Assembly (NCBI GenBank): GCA_020426325.1
Contig: JAGQQG010000066.1
Span: 1-32,788 of the forward strand
Direction of reading: 5' to 3'
Origin: Planctomycetaceae bacterium
Lineage (GTDB): Bacteria > Planctomycetota > Planctomycetia > Planctomycetales > Planctomycetaceae
DNA: 32,788 nt
This document shows, piece after piece, positions 1,428 through 26,469 of this stretch (its first letter is position 1; every line of letters begins with the position of its first letter). Under the pieces are notes generated by a model that saw nothing but the letters and a program-made list of their open reading frames with translations, did not search any database and had not been told where the DNA came from. Position numbers and translations under genes: made by a program.

Positions 1428-4400
1428 TTAGTGGCTGTCAACGGGCGGACGTCCGAGCGGATTTCGTTTCCGGCTTGAGGAGGGAGAGTCGAAACTCACC
1501 GTCTCGCTCCAGACGTACCAGTGGGGGTAGACGTAGACCCAGTAGCCGGCGGGGTAGCCTTTTTCGTCGGCATCTTGTGGGCCGGTCCACCAGCCTCGGT
1601 TGTGGAAGGCGCCGTATTGTTTGAAGTCCTCGGGCCGCTGGATTTTGTCCAGCAGGTCCTCGTAGCGGCCGTCGAGTGAGGCCTTGCGGCGGGCTTCGAG
1701 TGACGAGAGTTCGGGTGGCGGGGGCGAGTCTGTGCCGTGTGACTGACGGTGCAGTTGCCGGGCTCTCAGAACCATGTCGATGAACTCGGCGCGTTGACCG
1801 CTGCGGTCGTCACCCATCGCATCGCGGGCCAGTTCGAGGACCGAGTCGAACTTGGCGTTGCCAAGATAGGCCGAGTTTCGCAGCAGCATGCCGAAGGAGG
1901 CGACGGCGGCGGACCATTCGAGGTTGTTTGAGCGTGACTGCTTGTCGGGGTCATCGATCAGTGGGAACTCGAGTTTCTGACTCGTGAAGAATGTGGGGCG
2001 TTTGTAGCGTAGTTTGACTGTTAGCAGATCGGGGGAGACAGTGCGTGGGGTTGCTTCATTCAATTCAAGTTGATGACGTTCAAGTTGTCGAATACGACTT
2101 TGGAGCTCTTGCATCTGCTTGCGGGCGGCAATGACTCCAGGATGTTCCGCGCCGAACTCTTCCTGCAACTCCTTCGTGTGTTGCTCAAACGCCTGCTTTT
2201 CCTTTGCGATAATATCCAGCACGGTTCTCAACTCTTCTGGGGTTGCAGGCAAATCAGAGGAGAGTTGGGGGTTAGTGGTTGATGGTTGAGAGTCAGGTTC
2301 GATCGCGGGGGCTGTCTTTGAGGCGTCTTTGCTCTCCGCTCTTGTCTCTTGACTCTCCGCTGGCTGGTACTTGAGTGGGTCGACGTTCGGTTCGTTTGGC
2401 TGTCGCATCGGTAGTGCATGGGGGGGGACGATCTCGTAGAGCGCGCATACCGAGTGACCGGCGCCGAGGTCGCCGGCGTCGATTTGGTCGTTGTTAAAAT
2501 CCTCTGCGGCGAGGGTGCGGTTTTCGTAGCCGATGAGGCGGTAGGCGCCGACGTGGGCCGGGTTGAACTCGATCTGGAGTTTGACGTCCTGGGCGATCGT
2601 GTAGAGCATGCCGGTGAGTTCGTCGAGGAACACCTTGCGTGCCTGACGCAAGCCGTCGATGTAGTGGTAGTGACCGTTGCCGTGGTCTGCGATCTGTTCA
2701 AGCTTCGCGTCCTTGAGGTTGCCGGTCCCGAAGCCGAAGATGCTGAGGAACACGCCCGTATCACGTTTCCCGGAGATCATCTGCACGAGCGGGGCGTCTG
2801 CACTTTCGCCCACGTTGAAGTCACCGTCGGTGCAGAGGATCACGCGGTTCGAGCCGTTGTCGATCTTGTGCTGCGTGGCGACTTCGTAGGCTGTCTTCAG
2901 TCCTGCTTCGCCATTGGTCGAGCCGCCCGCGGACAGCGAGTCGATGATGGACATGATCTCGTCGCGGTGTTCGCCCGAGGTGCTGTCGAGGAGGAGGCCG
3001 GCGTCGTTTGAGTAAGTGACGATTGCGATGCGGTCGTTCTCGCTCATCTCGTCGACGAGCAGCCGCAGCGACTCCTTGACCAGCGGCAGCTTGTTGTCAT
3101 CCCGCATCGAGCCGGACGTGTCGATGAGAAACACGAGCGACGTCGGCGGCCGGTCCGCGAGGTCGATCTCCTTGCCCTTCACGCCGATGCGCACGAGCCG
3201 ATGCGTCGCATCCCACGGACAGGCGGCTGACTCCAGCGAGACCCGCAACGGATGCTCATCGACCGGCTGCGGATCGTCGTAGGAGAACGAGTTGACCAAC
3301 TCCTCAATCCGCACCGCATCCGGCGGCGGCAGCCGTCCCTCATCCAACAAAAACCGCCGCACATTCGCATAGGAAGCCGTGTCGACATCAAGGCCAAACG
3401 TCGAGAGGGGGGCGTCGACGGGTGAGGTGAACGGGTTCTCGACGATGGGGGCGTAGGACTCGAAGTTGTGCTGATATGTACTGGAGATAACAAGAACTCC
3501 ATCATCGACTCTGTAATCGAGTCTCATCGGCTTGAGGATCAGATTCAAAGCAGATTTCAGCTTGATTCCCTCGACGTTGATCGTAATGGGAACCTGACTC
3601 GTCAAGCCGATCTCGGACAACGACCTCTCATCGATCATGAGATTGATCTTCGCATCGGTTGCCAAGTGCTGTAATACTTCGGTCAAAGGGGCTTCGGTGA
3701 AGCTCAGCGAGACCTGCTTTGAGAGTTCGTCATTCATGACAAGCAATTCCTCTCTCAGCTCGCGTATCTCTGCGGCTCTCTGAGCGGCCAATGTCTGCGT
3801 ATCAACGAACTTCAAACCGAGATGTGATGACACTGCTGAGGAGTTGTCATCGGCCAACTGGAAAATCGCTCCACGTTCAGTCTCGTCGAGTTCTTTCCAA
3901 AAACTCTGTTCCTTGAGCGTGTTGGCCGGGGCTTTGCCATTACTCTGAGGTGACAAATACAGACGAGCACGATCTACGGGGGTTTCTGCTGAGAAACGCG
4001 AAACGGAGGCAGGTGAATGCATCTGCTGCCCTGACGATGGGGTGGATGCTTTGGTGGCAGGTTTACTGCCACTAAAGGACCAGAACCGACTGGAGTTCCG
4101 ATCGGTTGGAGAGTTGATTGGATCGACTGACCCCAATGGGGCAACTGGCAGGAAGTCCTGTTCGGTCTGTTGCTGTAGGTTCTCTGAGGATGCAATGAAA
4201 GGTACTACCACACTTTCACTGCTAACATGATCGTAGGCGACATGCGGACTGTTGGCATCCGATGATTGTTCGGTCGCCTGGGGAGTGACAGCGAATTGAA
4301 GAACGGAATCCACATCGTTTCCGGGAGAGTTTTCGGAGATGCGAAAGTACTCCAAGCGTTGTTGCGTCAGGTCCTCGTGATTCGGGATTTCTGCAAAGTC

Positions 4401-4853
4401 GACGCCGTATGAATCACTTTGTGTTTGTTGCGTGACCATCGCGATACCGTCAGGTGCCGGCTGGTTGTTGACGGGGAGTACGACTGCCAGCAGGAGGGCG
4501 ACGCTGACGGCGAGGACGGTCAGCAGGGCGGTGGTGACGGCGCGTCGTTGAGAGGATTCGGAGCGGTTGTTGTTCGACACGGCGACGCGTTTGGTCGGGC
4601 TGCGGGGCACGCTGCCAGTGGTCGCCGCAGAATGAATCGCGGACCGCTGGGTGTCTGTAAGTGTAGTGACCGGTTCGCTCTGCAGGGCCTCGTCGAGCAG
4701 GACGGTTGTCGCCCGCAGTTCCTCGACCGCACGCCGACATGCGGGTGACGTGGTGAGGTGTGCCTCGACGGTCTCGCGTTCAGCGTCAGAAAGTTCGCCG
4801 AGGACGTAAGCGGTCAGGCGGGGATCGTCGGGAGTGATGGGTGTGTCGGACAT
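1428..4853 (-). CDS. Anti-sigma-like membrane protein with STN and von Willebrand A domains
   Basis: 1141 residues from the ATG at 4853, which has GGAGA upstream; a TTG six codons earlier is open but unlikely. Domains in order: anti-sigma/zinc-finger-like helices at residues 9-55 (LGELSDAE; His32 and Cys39, with Ser36 where the first CxxC Cys is expected); one membrane helix at about 105-128; a long Ser/Gln-rich linker; an STN/secretin-type domain at about 380-455; a VWF-N-like segment at about 470-530; a VWA domain at about 569-745 with the MIDAS string DTSGSM at 578-583 and CTDGDFN; a YfbK-type C-terminal region interrupted by a coiled coil at about 877-935; and a Tyr/Trp-rich end. The N-terminus would sit in the cytoplasm and the STN/VWA part outside. 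It follows the sigma factor gene with one gene between, so it is probably the membrane regulator of that factor. The domain order is seen; the ligand is unknown. Confidence 0.88.
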   Translation of the reverse strand: MSDTPITPDDPRLTAYVLGELSDAERETVEAHLTTSPACRRAVEELRATTVLLDEALQSEPVTTLTDTQRSAIHSAATTGSVPRSPTKRVAVSNNNRSESSQRRAVTTALLTVLAVSVALLLAVVLPVNNQPAPDGIAMVTQQTQSDSYGVDFAEIPNHEDLTQQRLEYFRISENSPGNDVDSVLQFAVTPQATEQSSDANSPHVAYDHVSSESVVVPFIASSENLQQQTEQDFLPVAPLGSVDPINSPTDRNSSRFWSFSGSKPATKASTPSSGQQMHSPASVSRFSAETPVDRARLYLSPQSNGKAPANTLKEQSFWKELDETERGAIFQLADDNSSAVSSHLGLKFVDTQTLAAQRAAEIRELREELLVMNDELSKQVSLSFTEAPLTEVLQHLATDAKINLMIDERSLSEIGLTSQVPITINVEGIKLKSALNLILKPMRLDYRVDDGVLVISSTYQHNFESYAPIVENPFTSPVDAPLSTFGLDVDTASYANVRRFLLDEGRLPPPDAVRIEELVNSFSYDDPQPVDEHPLRVSLESAACPWDATHRLVRIGVKGKEIDLADRPPTSLVFLIDTSGSMRDDNKLPLVKESLRLLVDEMSENDRIAIVTYSNDAGLLLDSTSGEHRDEIMSIIDSLSAGGSTNGEAGLKTAYEVATQHKIDNGSNRVILCTDGDFNVGESADAPLVQMISGKRDTGVFLSIFGFGTGNLKDAKLEQIADHGNGHYHYIDGLRQARKVFLDELTGMLYTIAQDVKLQIEFNPAHVGAYRLIGYENRTLAAEDFNNDQIDAGDLGAGHSVCALYEIVPPHALPMRQPNEPNVDPLKYQPAESQETRAESKDASKTAPAIEPDSQPSTTNPQLSSDLPATPEELRTVLDIIAKEKQAFEQHTKELQEEFGAEHPGVIAARKQMQELQSRIRQLERHQLELNEATPRTVSPDLLTVKLRYKRPTFFTSQKLEFPLIDDPDKQSRSNNLEWSAAVASFGMLLRNSAYLGNAKFDSVLELARDAMGDDRSGQRAEFIDMVLRARQLHRQSHGTDSPPPPELSSLEARRKASLDGRYEDLLDKIQRPEDFKQYGAFHNRGWWTGPQDADEKGYPAGYWVYVYPHWYVWSETVSFDSPSSSRKRNPLGRPPVDSH

Positions 4854-4905
4854 GGGTTGTCTCCACGTCAATTCGTCAAGGTGACGGAATCGTTAAAATG
4901 AGTGA

Positions 4906-5811
4906 TCAGTCTGGTTGTTTGGTCGTCTGTTTCCGGCAGAAGCTGTCGATGGCTCGCAATAATGCCTGATGCCGCGAGACAAGCTCGGGGGACTCTTCTG
5001 CGGCTTCGATTGTGTCGATGGCGGCGGATAATCTTTCCCGCACGTCGTCTGCCGTCTCCCGTTCTAGAGCGCTGCGGAGTCGCGGAAGCTGGGGCGTTGC
5101 GGTCGCCTTGTAGGCACCGATCGCGCCGGCGGCATTGAGGCGGACCCATTTGTCGCCGTCATTGAGCATCTTCGCGACCTCCTCAGCGTCGTTCGAGTCG
5201 AACTGGTTGAGCCGCGAGTAGTGTCCCGTTCCCCATCCCCGCACAGTCCGGTCCCGGGAGGACAACCCCTCGAGGTATCTCAGACGTAGGTCATACTCCT
5301 GGATTACGCTGACCCCCTCCGGGATCACGAGGTCTGCCAACTTGATTCGCTCATTATCAACAGCAACAGTCAGCACCGGGAGTACGGGCCAGAAGTGGTC
5401 ACCCTTGTCCAATGTCGACATGTGGCTTGCGATGCCGCCGATGACATCGAGACTCCAGTCGTAGGGGATCTCATTCCGGCGGAAGTCTTTGGTCGACAGA
5501 GGCGCCGGTCGCAGAACGACCTCGTGCTTCTCCAGTGGAACTGCTGCATACGCTTGCAGGACCTCGTTCAGCGACTCGGTCGTGCCCCGATAGAAGAGTC
5601 CCTCATGTCCGTTGACCCAATAGGCGTAAACTCGGCTCTTGTGGTTGGCGACAGGGTTCAGTTCGGCAAATGACTCCAGAGACATCTCGTCGTTGCCGTG
5701 CTTTTCCGTGCCCCACCCCCATGCCGTCTGAGTCAACACGCCAACGAAGAGCAGGACACATGAGGCCACGCCAGCGAAACGTACGGTCATGATTCGTCGT
5801 AAGTATTCCAT
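4906..5811 (-). CDS. Secreted protein with a C-terminal HEAT-like segment, between sigma and anti-sigma genes
   Basis: 301 residues from the ATG at 5811, preceded by GAGGA seven bases upstream. An earlier ATG at 5844 overlaps the sigma-factor stop as ATGA and would add 11 residues; the signal peptide and ribosome site favour the later one. A hydrophobic segment (VASCVLLFVGVLTQTAWG) fits a signal peptide with cleavage near residue 32. The middle has no family I recognise. The C-terminus (about 215-285) looks like one or two HEAT/armadillo-type helical repeats (DKWVRLNAAGAIGAY, then LRSALE). The gene lies 29 bases after the sigma factor and 52 bases before the VWA protein, so the three are probably co-transcribed. 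It may be an extracytoplasmic partner of the VWA protein; that role is inference from position. Confidence 0.8.
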   Translation of the reverse strand: MEYLRRIMTVRFAGVASCVLLFVGVLTQTAWGWGTEKHGNDEMSLESFAELNPVANHKSRVYAYWVNGHEGLFYRGTTESLNEVLQAYAAVPLEKHEVVLRPAPLSTKDFRRNEIPYDWSLDVIGGIASHMSTLDKGDHFWPVLPVLTVAVDNERIKLADLVIPEGVSVIQEYDLRLRYLEGLSSRDRTVRGWGTGHYSRLNQFDSNDAEEVAKMLNDGDKWVRLNAAGAIGAYKATATPQLPRLRSALERETADDVRERLSAAIDTIEAAEESPELVSRHQALLRAIDSFCRKQTTKQPD

Positions 5812-5840
5812 GCCAAATTCCTCAGTAACGCTGGGTGAGG

Positions 5841-6356
5841 TCATTCGTCGCGGTTCAGTTGTTCTCGCAGTCTCTTGAGGCCCGTGTGGATCAGGAAGCC
5901 GACGTTGGTGGCGGTCAAATCGGTCACTGCGGCGATCTCGCGGTAGCTCAGGCCGTGCTGAAACTTCAGGCGGATGCATTCCTGCTGGTTGTCGGTGAGG
6001 TCGCCCAGGTGATCGAGAATGCGGGCGACGTCATCGCGGTCCTCGGCTGACCGGGCGGGGTTCGGTTCCTCGCTGCAGGTGTCGTCGAGCGTCGGTTCTG
6101 CGATAGCCGTCATCCGTGATTCCTTCCTTCGCACGTCGATCGCCTGATTGCGGCAGACGGTGTACAGCCACTGGGCCAGATGTCCGTCAATCGCCGTCGG
6201 CTGCTCGCGACACAGTTTGAGGAACGTCTCCTGCACGACGTCTTGGGCCCGGTGAGGGTCGCCCGTGATCCGCTGGGCGTAACGCAACAGACGTCCCTCA
6301 AACTGGTTGAGGGCCGCGGCCACCCATTCGTGTCCGGCGTGTCCATTGTGTTTCAT
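5841..6356 (-). CDS. ECF-type RNA polymerase sigma factor
   Basis: 171 residues from the ATG at 6356; a GTG one codon earlier is equally possible, and no strong ribosome site helps the choice. Sigma region 2 is clear at about 18-80 (LLRYAQRITGD, DVVQETFLKLCRE, AQWLYTVCRNQAIDVRR). Region 4 is at about 117-168 (LTDNQQECIRLKFQ, LSYREIAAVT, then a helix ending LKRLREQL). Length and layout match group 4 sigma factors, which redirect RNA polymerase to a small regulon and are held by membrane anti-sigma factors. The second gene downstream encodes such a membrane protein. The 223 bases upstream (6357-6579) presumably hold the promoter; I could not identify a convincing -35/-10 pair there. Confidence 0.93.
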   Translation of the reverse strand: MKHNGHAGHEWVAAALNQFEGRLLRYAQRITGDPHRAQDVVQETFLKLCREQPTAIDGHLAQWLYTVCRNQAIDVRRKESRMTAIAEPTLDDTCSEEPNPARSAEDRDDVARILDHLGDLTDNQQECIRLKFQHGLSYREIAAVTDLTATNVGFLIHTGLKRLREQLNRDE

Positions 6357-6579
6357 CACAGAGTCCGCGACTCGTTCAGCAGGTGTGACGCAGCAAGACG
6401 AAAATCGTTAGCAGAAATCTGATCGATTTTTGAGAAACTGCGACGATTGACTGAGGAAGCTGCTCTCACGGCACTTTGGCTTCGTGGAAGTCAGAGTGAT
6501 GTGCGTGTTCCTGCCCAACGGAGTTGTCGCCTGGATCAGTGCAATGCCGCTGTTTGCGCAAATGCACGACGGCTGTCGA

Positions 6580-7029
6580 TCATTCGTCAGCTGTAGCGGT
6601 TGGTTTCGCGGAGGGAGATGACGTACGGGACTTCGGCTTCATCACCGCACCGTTTTTGCCAGCATGGCTCTTCGGCGGAGTGATGGCCGTCTCCCCGGTC
6701 CCTTCTGTGGTTTCCGTTGAAGATGCATCGGTCTCTATCGATGAGGCTGATTCCGACTGTTCATCAGAAGGCTTTGCTTCGTTGGAGACGTTCTCCGAGT
6801 GCGTGTCCTCAGATTCCTGTGTTTGACCGGCCATTGGATCTTCGGTCGTCAGTTCGCCGTTCGGAAGTTCGTAATAGAGTTGTCCGTTAATGGAGTAGAC
6901 GTTCGGAATCCCCATGCGACGATTATCCTCCTGCGCCTTTTTGGTGGCGCGGCGGCCGATCCGCAGAATGCGGTTGACATTGACGAATTCCGTCAAGTCG
7001 GCCAGATATTCACGCAGAGGTTTTTTCAT
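6580..7029 (-). CDS. Probable antitoxin of a zeta-type toxin pair
   Basis: 149 residues. The first 70 form a compact basic region (KPLREYLADLTEFVNVN, RIGRRATKKAQEDNRR) followed by GIPNVYSINGQLYYELPNGE. This kind of short strand pair ending in an NG turn and PNGE is, from memory, a recurring feature of small proteins encoded beside zeta-like kinases. Residues about 70-149 are low-complexity Ser/Thr/Glu-rich and look disordered. The start overlaps the end of the kinase gene by 20 bases, so the two are translationally coupled. Toxin first and antitoxin second is the less usual order. The antitoxin role is inferred from pairing; a scaffold or substrate of the kinase is the alternative. Confidence 0.65.
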   Translation of the reverse strand: MKKPLREYLADLTEFVNVNRILRIGRRATKKAQEDNRRMGIPNVYSINGQLYYELPNGELTTEDPMAGQTQESEDTHSENVSNEAKPSDEQSESASSIETDASSTETTEGTGETAITPPKSHAGKNGAVMKPKSRTSSPSAKPTATADE

Positions 7030-7645
7030 CGTTCACCAAGGCGAGGAATTGTCCGAACAGAGCTTCATTCTGGATGATGTAGGAGTCCTCGGCTCCCATG
7101 GCGACATCATGGAACTGACTCTCTGCATTGTAAACGAGCACCCACTGATCCGCCAAGAAACGGTAGCTTTCCCAGAAATTGCGGATGCTCCGCCAGAACC
7201 GTCGCCTTACGGCACGGTCGGGGACATTGTGGCCCCCTTTCTGGACCCGTTGCTGGACCCGCTTCAGACAAGTCTCCGGTCCGTCGAGGAACATCATCAC
7301 CAGGGTGATGGGCATGTCGGCCTCACGCGCCCGCTCGAATGTACGTGCCATGCCGATCCCGGACAGCGTCGACTCGATGAGAATCGAATCATCAGTCTTC
7401 ATCGCCTCATTCAGCGCAGAAAAGTATGCCTTGCCCGCTGAGAAACGAGCACCGTCGGGGTCCTCGGGTGCCAGCTTATAGGCCATCAAATCCGCACTGA
7501 GGTAGATGCACGGCTGTTCATCGAGAAACTCGTCCGCAAGCGTCGTCTTGCCGGTCCCGTTTGGTCCGCCGATGACAATCAACTGTCTCGTTGGTGTGAT
7601 CGGCTGCATGGTTGAGTGAGACTCAAGAGACATCGATTGATCCAT
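7010..7645 (-). CDS. Zeta-toxin-like P-loop kinase
   Basis: 211 residues. Walker A is GPNGTGKT at residues 27-34, followed by YLSADLMAYKL (52 is the Asp of the zeta-like NAD/SAD motif), PEDPD at 60-64, and IESTLSG at 90-96, the E(T/S)TLSG string of zeta-family kinases. VMMFLDGPETCLKRVQQRV and the Arg-rich AVRRRFWRS fit the substrate and lid helices. True zeta/PezT toxins phosphorylate UDP-N-acetylglucosamine and block wall synthesis, but this subgroup is biochemically little known. The start is uncertain: ATGs at codons 1, 5 and 13 are all possible and none has a strong ribosome site. The downstream overlapping gene is the probable antitoxin. A non-toxic small-molecule kinase is the main alternative. 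Confidence 0.8.
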   Translation of the reverse strand: MDQSMSLESHSTMQPITPTRQLIVIGGPNGTGKTTLADEFLDEQPCIYLSADLMAYKLAPEDPDGARFSAGKAYFSALNEAMKTDDSILIESTLSGIGMARTFERAREADMPITLVMMFLDGPETCLKRVQQRVQKGGHNVPDRAVRRRFWRSIRNFWESYRFLADQWVLVYNAESQFHDVAMGAEDSYIIQNEALFGQFLALVNDEKTSA

Positions 7646-8600: not shown

Positions 8601-9668
8601 CTATCTCTTTCGGGCACGCTTTTTCGCCCGTTCGTGTAATTCGACCGGAACCTCACGAATGAGCTGATCCACCACGTCGTCGGGCGAGATGCCTTCGCTG
8701 TTGGCCTGAAAGGTCGTGACGATCCGATGCCGCAGGACGGGATGAGCGACCGACTTCACATCTTCGGTCGTCACATGAAACCGGCCTTCGAGAATGGCCC
8801 GAGCTTTTGCACCCACGATGAGGTACTGACCGGCTCGCGGACCGGCACCCCAGGAAATGTAATTCTTCACGAACGTCCGTGCCTCCGGCTCGTCCGGTCG
8901 TGTGGCTCGCACCAGGTCGCGAGCGTAAACGAACACATGTTCGGGCACCGGGACCTTCCGCACTACTTCCTGAAGAGCAAGCACCTGCTTGCCAGTCAGG
9001 GCGTGCGACAACTGCGGCTCCTCGCCTCCGGTTGTCTGTTTGAGGATCAGTAACTCCTCAGCAGCTGACGGGTATTTGACAACCACGTTGAACATAAACC
9101 GATCCAATTGCGCCTCTGGCAACGGATAGGTTCCCTCCTGCTCGATCGGGTTTTGCGTCGCCAGCACGAAGAACGGAGTTGGCAGTCGATACGTGTGCGA
9201 CCCGACTGTGACGTGCCGCTCTTGCATGGCTTCGAGTAAAGCGGCCTGGGTCTTGGGGGGCGTGCGGTTGATCTCGTCCGCGAGAAGTACGTGGGTAAAC
9301 AACGGCCCCTGCATGAACTCAAACCGTCGTTGCCCCGTCTCCGGATCGTCCTGCAACACATCAGTGCCTGTAATGTCTGACGGCATCAGGTCGGGCGTGA
9401 ACTGAATCCGCCGGAACGACAACTGCAGAATGCCCGAGATGGTGCTGACGAGCAGGGTCTTCGCCAGCCCCGGCACGCCGACCAGCAGGCAGTGACCACG
9501 ACTGAACATGGCAATCAGAATCTGATCAACGACGTCGGTCTGCCCGACAATGACCTTGCCGATTTCTTCCCGCATGCGTGCATACGCATTCGCCAGCCCA
9601 CGAATGGCCTGCTCCTCACGCTCCCGCTGGTCCTGCTCAGACAAGACCGCTTGTGCCTGCTCGTTCAT
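8601..9668 (-). CDS. MoxR-family AAA+ ATPase
   Basis: 355 residues, the normal MoxR length. Walker A is GVPGLAKT at 64-71; Walker B is VLLADEIN with DEIN at 131-134. Sensor-1 ATQNP, the LPEAQLDRF arginine-finger region and a C-terminal lid ending in basic KKRARKR are also visible. MoxR ATPases act as chaperones that mature or insert partner proteins, very often ones with VWA domains, and usually lie next to DUF58 genes. No DUF58 gene is present here; the nearest VWA gene is 1428-4853 on the same strand. The stop is followed by the DUF1080 gene. The ATG at 9668 fits the family N-terminus, though its ribosome site is weak. Confidence 0.93.
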
Positions 9669-25827: not shown

Positions 25828-26469
25828 ATGTCGCCCATCGGTTTTTCGTTGTTCACTGCGATGCTCCTCGCTCAGCCTGTGGCGGACCAAGCTTCGACTT
25901 CCGCCGTGCGTGTGACTGACAGCCAGGAATACAACCGTATCATCGATGGTTTGGACGCTGACACACAATTGAAACTGGTGAATGCAACGCTCAGTGAAGC
26001 ACTTCAGCAGCTTGTAGCTCAGCATCATCTCAACTTTGTGGTCGACAATCTGGCACTCAGGGAAGCTCAAAAGGAGTTCGAAGTTGAACGGAATGATCTT
26101 TCGCTGATCGTCAGTAATCTCCGACTCCGTTCTGCATTGAAAATGATGCTGGAACCTCTGGAACTGGATTACGTCATTGATGATGAAGTCATCATCATTA
26201 CCACAAAAGAGGCCGCATTGAGCCATCAAGGGACACACGTCTATGACGTCTCCGCTCTGGTCAAAGGGGGCACAGTCGCCTCTCTCGCAGAGGCGGTCCG
26301 CACAGCCTTACCGAGTTCAGTTCAACGGTCCGCTTCGATTTCAGGTTACCGGAATCTGATGCTCGTCACCGGAAACCGTCAGGTCCACGAGAACGTCAGC
26401 AAGATGTTACGCCTCATCAATGACGGAATCCGAGACGAACCAGTTCCTACGCCAATCCCGACATATTGA
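25828..26469 (+). CDS. Lone STN/secretin-like domain protein, exported
   Basis: 213 residues; AGGAG lies eight bases before the ATG at 25828. A short signal peptide (IGFSLFTAMLLAQPVA) is followed by an STN-like domain at about 48-130: ATLSEALQQLVAQHHLNFVV, then LRLRSALKMMLEPLELDYVI and DDEVIIIT. It aligns by eye with residues 380-455 of the VWA protein encoded at 1428-4853 (shared L-E-LQ-L, SAL-, -L-P--LDY--DD-V--I). A second small domain (about 137-205; THVYDVSALV, LMLVTGNRQVHENVSKMLRLI) resembles a secretin N1-type fold. There is no secretin pore or TonB receptor. It probably acts in the periplasm as a binding module; the partner is unknown. Confidence 0.75.
   Translation: MSPIGFSLFTAMLLAQPVADQASTSAVRVTDSQEYNRIIDGLDADTQLKLVNATLSEALQQLVAQHHLNFVVDNLALREAQKEFEVERNDLSLIVSNLRLRSALKMMLEPLELDYVIDDEVIIITTKEAALSHQGTHVYDVSALVKGGTVASLAEAVRTALPSSVQRSASISGYRNLMLVTGNRQVHENVSKMLRLINDGIRDEPVPTPIPTY

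Follow-up and report, generated by a model that had tools for sequence, protein, structure and literature searches.

A conserved gene pair in the Planctomycetota joins an ECF sigma factor to a probable membrane-anchored anti-sigma protein with an outer VWA module

The window analyzed here is the whole 32,788-nucleotide stretch of contig JAGQQG010000066.1 (positions 1 to 32,788) from a Planctomycetaceae bacterium, whose draft genome (GenBank assembly GCA_020426325.1) spans 6.85 Mb and is 95.6% complete. Near its start lie three minus-strand genes, whose placement in a first-pass annotation, made from the letters alone, we confirmed on the sequence. The first encodes an extracytoplasmic function (ECF) sigma factor of 171 residues (5841..6356, ATG at 6356), the second a secreted HEAT-like protein of 301 residues (4906..5811, ATG at 5811) and the third a protein of 1141 residues (1428..4853, ATG at 4853) in which an anti-sigma-type domain, a transmembrane helix and a VWA module are fused. 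The conserved core of this locus in the Planctomycetota is a two-gene cassette, consisting of the sigma factor and the anti-sigma/transmembrane/VWA protein. The sigma factor is recognized by Sigma70_r2 (50.9 bits) and r4_2 (35.2 bits), both above the Pfam cut-off, and by TIGR02937, and it matches solved ECF sigma factors, SigE best and SigL next.

The N-terminal domain of the fused protein (residues 1-80; 4614..4853, minus strand like all features of this protein and its promoter) is of the class I anti-sigma type and lacks the Hx3Cx2C motif. It matches the Pfam model zf-HC2 at 32.1 bits (cut-off 22.2) and the PDB chain 3hug_B with an E-value of 3.8e-5; we take this chain to be RslA of M. tuberculosis, with SigL. 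Another model, NF052375, scores 60.4 bits on the protein, under its own cut-off of 100, and RskA_N was matched in 4 of 89 homologous fused N-terminal regions. Helices are predicted at residues 11-17, 23-35, 37-58 and 67-78, with a further helix at 102-125, and the predicted local distance difference test score (pLDDT) is 82-86 over residues 11-50 and below 50 for helix 67-78. Both the predicted helices and the match to 3hug_B are consistent with a domain of the class I anti-sigma type that leads into a transmembrane segment. The suggestion of an anti-sigma-like N-terminus, as made in the first-pass annotation, is supported by the zf-HC2 score, the match to a solved structure and the confidently predicted part of the helices.

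Hydropathy and the predicted helix at residues 102-125 (4479..4550) agree on a single transmembrane segment, which is followed by a linker (residues 126-379; 3717..4478) that is probably flexible, its pLDDT being mostly below 50. Among the 89 homologues, the distance from the transmembrane helix to the core ranges from 79 to 615 residues, with a median of 249. Beyond the linker and an STN-like segment (residues ~380-460; 3474..3716), the domain order of the YfbK family, PF12450, VWA, PF12034, is complete: vWF_A (PF12450, residues 463-555; 3189..3467) scores 111.5 bits, VWA (2649..3137) 75.2 bits and YfbK_C (PF12034; 1752..2609) 210.9 bits, each above the Pfam cut-off, and YfbK_C is divided into two pieces by a helical insertion in the predicted structure (residues 872-933; 2055-2240). 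The VWA domain has a full metal-ion-dependent adhesion site (MIDAS), and its residues D578, S580, S582, T646 and D676 are invariant in an alignment of 12 rows, comprising three fused proteins and nine proteins from named proteobacterial records. A MIDAS-bearing VWA domain is located past one transmembrane helix, as had been proposed. A Foldseek search with the whole model returned almost exclusively VWA-type structures among the best 50 of 998 matches, and was uninformative on the STN-like segment.

We surveyed YfbK_C in 170 genomes of the window's order and in 392 genomes drawn across the phylum, with E. coli positive as a control, and found it in 85 and 199 genomes, respectively. Stretches were fetched around the matches in the order and around 60 matches from the phylum, hand-picked from those listed and biased to long frames. 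Fused and unfused genes were called with anti-sigma and YfbK models built from the order set. The evaluable fused genes number 44 in the order, spread over 27 genera by our own count, and 43 in the phylum sample. Loci and genomes are referred to by L and G numbers. Four duplicate records (L067, L068, L069 and L080, identical to L123, L140, L150 and L112, respectively) were excluded from the counts; L079, L081, L082, L150, L188 and L189 contain no YfbK core frame and were dropped; order loci at contig ends (2 fused, 16 unfused) were left unjudged; and L140, from the genus-mate G065, was tallied as unfused because its gene is broken by unread bases.

A sigma gene adjoins the fused gene in all 87 evaluable fused loci. 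It is located upstream on the same strand, within 1 kb, in 44 of 44 loci from the order and 42 of 43 from the phylum sample (86/87), and in 82 of these 86 cases the gap is shorter than 300 nt, with a median of 70. In the one exception, L251, the sigma gene is directly downstream. Unfused YfbK genes have a sigma gene upstream in 8 of 43 cases in the order and 3 of 18 in the phylum sample (11/61), downstream in 2 of 43 in the order, and no sigma neighbor in 33 of 43 and 15 of 18 cases (48/61). Fisher tests, in which relatedness is ignored, gave p = 6e-17 and 2e-10. Homologues of the VWA protein without a sigma neighbor, which were taken beforehand to speak against a signaling unit, are consequently the rule for the stand-alone YfbK proteins, whereas the fused form has one in 87 of 87 cases. 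Of the three genes, the sigma gene and its anti-sigma/VWA partner recur together across the phylum sample, but not the HEAT-like gene, which among the fetched loci accompanies the cassette in the window and G065 only.

When open reading frames (ORFs) that run antisense to one of the two cassette genes are disregarded, no third gene occurs in more than 4 of the 87 loci. Two candidates for a conserved third neighbor were rejected: in a cluster present at 17 of the 87 loci, 16 of the 18 ORFs are antisense to the sigma gene, and in another, from 7 loci, all 7 ORFs lie antisense to the VWA gene. The cluster ranking after these covers 4 loci.

The sigma factors paired with the fused genes are nearly monophyletic. 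A tree built on the 118 sigma domains of these loci contains a bipartition (support 0.964) that takes in 84 of the 86 fused-linked sigmas, with those from L141 and L148 outside, and the three further sigmas within it are all VWA-linked. Many of the regions upstream of the sigma genes have a sequence motif in common. The word pair CTAAG/CGTC is present in 28 of 85 regions, whereas no pair exceeded 14 in 20 dinucleotide-shuffled sets, and for the order alone in 19 of 44 regions with a shuffled maximum of 8. A two-block model with the consensus YCTAAGA-N15-CGTCWT scores at least 14 in 62 of the 85 regions, which are also its training set, and in 0.2% of shuffled sequences; a motif derived de novo from the order alone reaches the same score in 14 of 41 held-out regions from the phylum sample, as compared to 1% of shuffled ones. 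Judged by the word-pair counts and the held-out scores, the promoter is well established for the order and also occurs in a good part of the loci sampled across the phylum. In the window, CTAACG-N15-CGTC at 6411-6387 is located 30 bases ahead of the sigma start, with CTAACG (6406..6411) as the putative -35 element of the operon's ECF-type promoter and CGTC (6387..6390), 15 nt further on, as the putative -10 element, both identified with the two-block motif.

We favor the interpretation, with a probability of roughly 0.8, that the cassette encodes a self-regulated ECF sigma factor together with a class I anti-sigma factor that is anchored in the membrane, does not bind zinc and has a MIDAS VWA module as its outer part. 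The pairing in the phylum sample, the near-monophyly of the linked sigmas, the promoter motif of many loci, the domain order and the loss of the zinc ligands are computed results. In addition, lysine and arginine are in excess on the anti-sigma side of the transmembrane helix in 67 of the 89 fused proteins, as expected if that side is cytoplasmic.

Several observations weigh against this interpretation. The excess of basic residues is missing in 22 of the 89 fused proteins. The Hx3Cx2C motif is present in 1 of the 89 fused domains and zf-HC2 was detected at E<=0.01 in just 17 of the 89 N-terminal regions, so that most anti-sigma calls rest on the model built here; according to PMC7406223, the motif is lacking in about 44% of class I domains. 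The model of the whole protein is poor beyond the anti-sigma and VWA parts (mean pLDDT 52.8), and the pairing counts treat related loci as independent. The 11 of 61 YfbK loci that have a sigma gene upstream are without a recognized anti-sigma domain; in ten of these proteins the transmembrane helix is preceded by another N-terminus, 50 residues or longer, and the eleventh, in L273, carries HxxxCxxC. Nine other unfused YfbK proteins have a long N-terminus before the transmembrane helix, as judged by crude hydropathy, and no sigma gene. As for the promoter, the best word pair in the phylum sample alone is found in 10 of 41 regions, equal to the shuffled maximum of 10, the held-out motif scores below 14 in 27 of 41 regions, and the window itself has a weaker variant with a score of 13.4, ranked 64 of 85. 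As a separate observation, the YfbK proteins with an upstream sigma gene in L171, L174, L187, L223 and L254 have a short, unrelated-looking N-terminus before the transmembrane helix, which is possibly another type of anti-sigma segment.

Class I anti-sigma factors of the RslA/SigL and RskA/SigK type likewise have an N-terminal helical domain, a single transmembrane helix and an adjacent ECF sigma gene. The window protein differs from these in that its outer part is a YfbK/VWA module with a MIDAS, and the zinc motif is absent in 88 of 89 fused proteins. In the sigma/anti-sigma arrangement given in PMC7406223, helix 1 packs against sigma4 and helix 4 against sigma2. The outer module of PF12450, VWA and PF12034 is shared with the YfbK family, to which E. 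coli YfbK belongs, but most stand-alone YfbK proteins have neither an anti-sigma domain nor a sigma neighbor, whereas in the window an anti-sigma-type protein carries the module as its outer part.

Split versions of the system are also found. In 6 of 9 named proteobacterial YfbK loci, an ECF sigma gene is located directly downstream, and in four of these (L070, L071, L073 and L078) it is followed by a gene for a transmembrane protein, for which no anti-sigma Pfam domain was reported. These loci share the VWA core and the neighboring ECF sigma gene with the fused cassette, but they consist of three separate genes with the VWA gene first, and their sigmas fall outside the fused-linked clade. The transmembrane protein in L078 (10102-11094) ends in a META domain (101.9 bits), so that this candidate anti-sigma factor has a different outer domain. 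In one planctomycete genus (L159, L163), the order is YfbK, sigma factor and then a separate transmembrane protein with zf-HC2, at 23.0 and 25.2 bits, above the cut-off. That these functions occur both on one chain and on separate proteins argues for a functional link between the parts.

Sigma binding, topology, the signal, the release step and the regulon are the elements that we infer. In the proposed mechanism, the N-terminal helical domain would bind and silence the neighboring ECF sigma factor in the cytoplasm, and the transmembrane helix and flexible linker would join it to the outer YfbK-type VWA module with its complete MIDAS. An event at this module, such as the binding of a ligand or metal, mechanical load or proteolysis, may then free the sigma factor, which would transcribe its own operon from the ECF-type promoter. 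The output would be more sigma factor, more anti-sigma/VWA protein and, in the window, the secreted HEAT-like protein.

How far the sigma factor reaches beyond its own operon was approached by scanning promoter patterns in 18 genomes chosen as cassette carriers. A strict pattern gave 13 matches, 10 of which are the cassette's own promoter and 3 elsewhere, and a second pattern gave 19 matches, 13 of them its own and 6 elsewhere. It is therefore conceivable, although we consider it rather unlikely, that the sigma factor controls little else, and that the cassette is a self-inducing device for the production of a surface VWA protein on which the anti-sigma domain acts as a brake rather than as a sensor for a wider regulon. 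The lack of a recurrent third gene is in line with this, as is a further strict site in G001, just 5' of a gene for a secreted VIT-VWA protein (L288 1501-3028; VIT 104.7 bits, VWA 56.7 bits) and hence a possible second target. However, the cassette promoters themselves served to tune the patterns, so that own matches are to be expected and degenerate targets escape detection; in 8 of the 18 genomes the strict pattern has no match; and a backwards-pattern control was commoner than the pattern (36 versus 13 for the strict, 173 versus 19 for the second), so that the counts show no genome-wide enrichment. Yet another strict site in G001, 5' of an ECF-type sigma gene, would imply a wider net. There is only a hint that the regulon may be small.

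Somewhat less probable still is that the VWA module merely anchors the protein or partners with envelope proteins, and that proteolysis of the linker alone switches the anti-sigma domain. The linker is long, variable and predicted with low confidence, and the genome has matches to M50 (site-2-type) proteases, as do all 14 control genomes, but the invariance of the MIDAS residues in the 12 aligned rows suggests metal-dependent binding. Another reading, which we regard as speculative, is an integrin-like outside-in switch, in which contact of the outer MIDAS VWA domain with a ligand or surface would be relayed by the single helix and would free an ECF sigma factor that mainly targets the gene for this surface protein; if true, this would mean self-amplifying production of an adhesion-type protein across the Planctomycetota. 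Inherited synteny without function is very improbable: the gene order is common to related genomes, but the pair persists through the phylum sample where other neighbors do not, and both gene orders occur, in addition to the split versions at other loci.

The first-pass annotation had placed the STN-like segment in the context of TonB-type surface signaling, with the roles of separate STN and FecR proteins possibly combined in one molecule. The STN model scores 20.2 bits on the fused protein (cut-off 28.4) and the fold is predicted with low confidence, but the segment is probably real although divergent, since PilQ (E 6.5e-6) and HofQ (E 5.6e-5), two secretin models from NCBIfam, match there, both far under their own cut-offs. 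STN was found at E<=0.01 in 1 of the 89 homologous N-terminal regions; G065, which is outside that set, also carries it, and L097 has it weakly, matching the window segment with an E-value of 5.6e-12. A second STN-like protein is encoded in the window by an ORF at 25828-26469 (STN 26.2 bits, under the cut-off), which resembles the STN segment of the fused protein (E 8.6e-10). FecI/FecR systems with an STN-containing TonB receptor likewise combine an ECF sigma factor, a membrane anti-sigma protein and an STN-like segment. Here, however, no FecR domain was found among the Pfam matches of the window proteins and the 89 N-terminal regions, and the window's own genome gave 0 Plug and 0 TonB-barrel matches in searches that were each positive in 3 of the 14 control genomes, which makes it unlikely that STN reports on a TonB receptor. 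The idea that STN contacts an outer-membrane receptor while the protein replaces FecR is thus largely refuted in spite of the STN-like segment, and we consider it very improbable.

The HEAT-like gene fared no better as part of a conserved unit. It is inserted between the sigma and anti-sigma genes, where the gap of 988 nt is the longest of the 86, and of all the loci fetched from the order and the phylum, only the window and G065 have it at the cassette, the two proteins being 86% identical. The gene is missing from the cassettes of G066 and G067, which belong to the same genus, so that it is present in 2 of 4 cassette-bearing members of the genus, and it was rejected as a core component. Its homologues in other genera (34-44%) have no sigma, anti-sigma or YfbK gene within the 1.5 kb flanks; alongside weaker homologues there are sigma matches in L065 and L066 and VWA-model matches in L057, L065 and L066. 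The protein itself has a hydrophobic N-terminus and matches HEAT_2 at 23.9 bits (cut-off 27.7), and its model, built from two sequences, has a mean pLDDT of 38.6. PADLOC gave one weak HEAT match and no match for the sigma or VWA protein. The HEAT-like gene and the STN-like segment are local additions, whereas the VWA module is the inherited outer part.

Near its C-terminus, the fused protein carries a 56-residue module (GxYxxLLxKI...YGAF...GYWVYVYPHWYVW; 1503..1670), identified with a model built in this analysis and without a reported Pfam domain, which was found near the end of 24 of the 89 fused proteins. The module also occurs in three other proteins, of which one has a caspase domain, one is small and probably a lipoprotein and one looks secreted, at L079 8052-8216, L081 8070-8222 and L082 4433-4609, for which no Pfam or NCBIfam model was reported over the module. 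These three carriers come from two planctomycete records and one Sericytochromatia bin, and the module is present in 6 of 246 planctomycete genomes.

Among the other genes in the window, a tyrosine-recombinase gene (Phage_integrase, 73-969) is located just downstream of the VWA gene and possibly marks the edge of a mobile element. Upstream of the cassette are genes for a zeta-toxin-like/AAA_33 kinase-type protein (7010-7645), which exceeds both Pfam cut-offs, and for a MoxR-type AAA protein (8601-9668). The latter is also found near the cassette in the genus-mate L123, which makes two loci, and is not a general neighbor.

Our findings show that the system is more general than was first thought, although its STN/TonB and HEAT parts are not. 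No anti-sigma factor with a VWA or YfbK module is described among the matches listed in the open literature that we searched, a search whose scope did not extend to the main ECF classification papers. Planctomycetes have many ECF sigma factors for which the signal is unknown. The cassette defines one conserved pair among these, with a nearly dedicated sigma clade, a likely anti-sigma partner and a promoter motif. The discrete outer domain of the pair has a metal site that can be tested, and the promoter sequence makes a reporter assay straightforward. For the widespread YfbK family, a sensor function in one lineage thereby becomes plausible.

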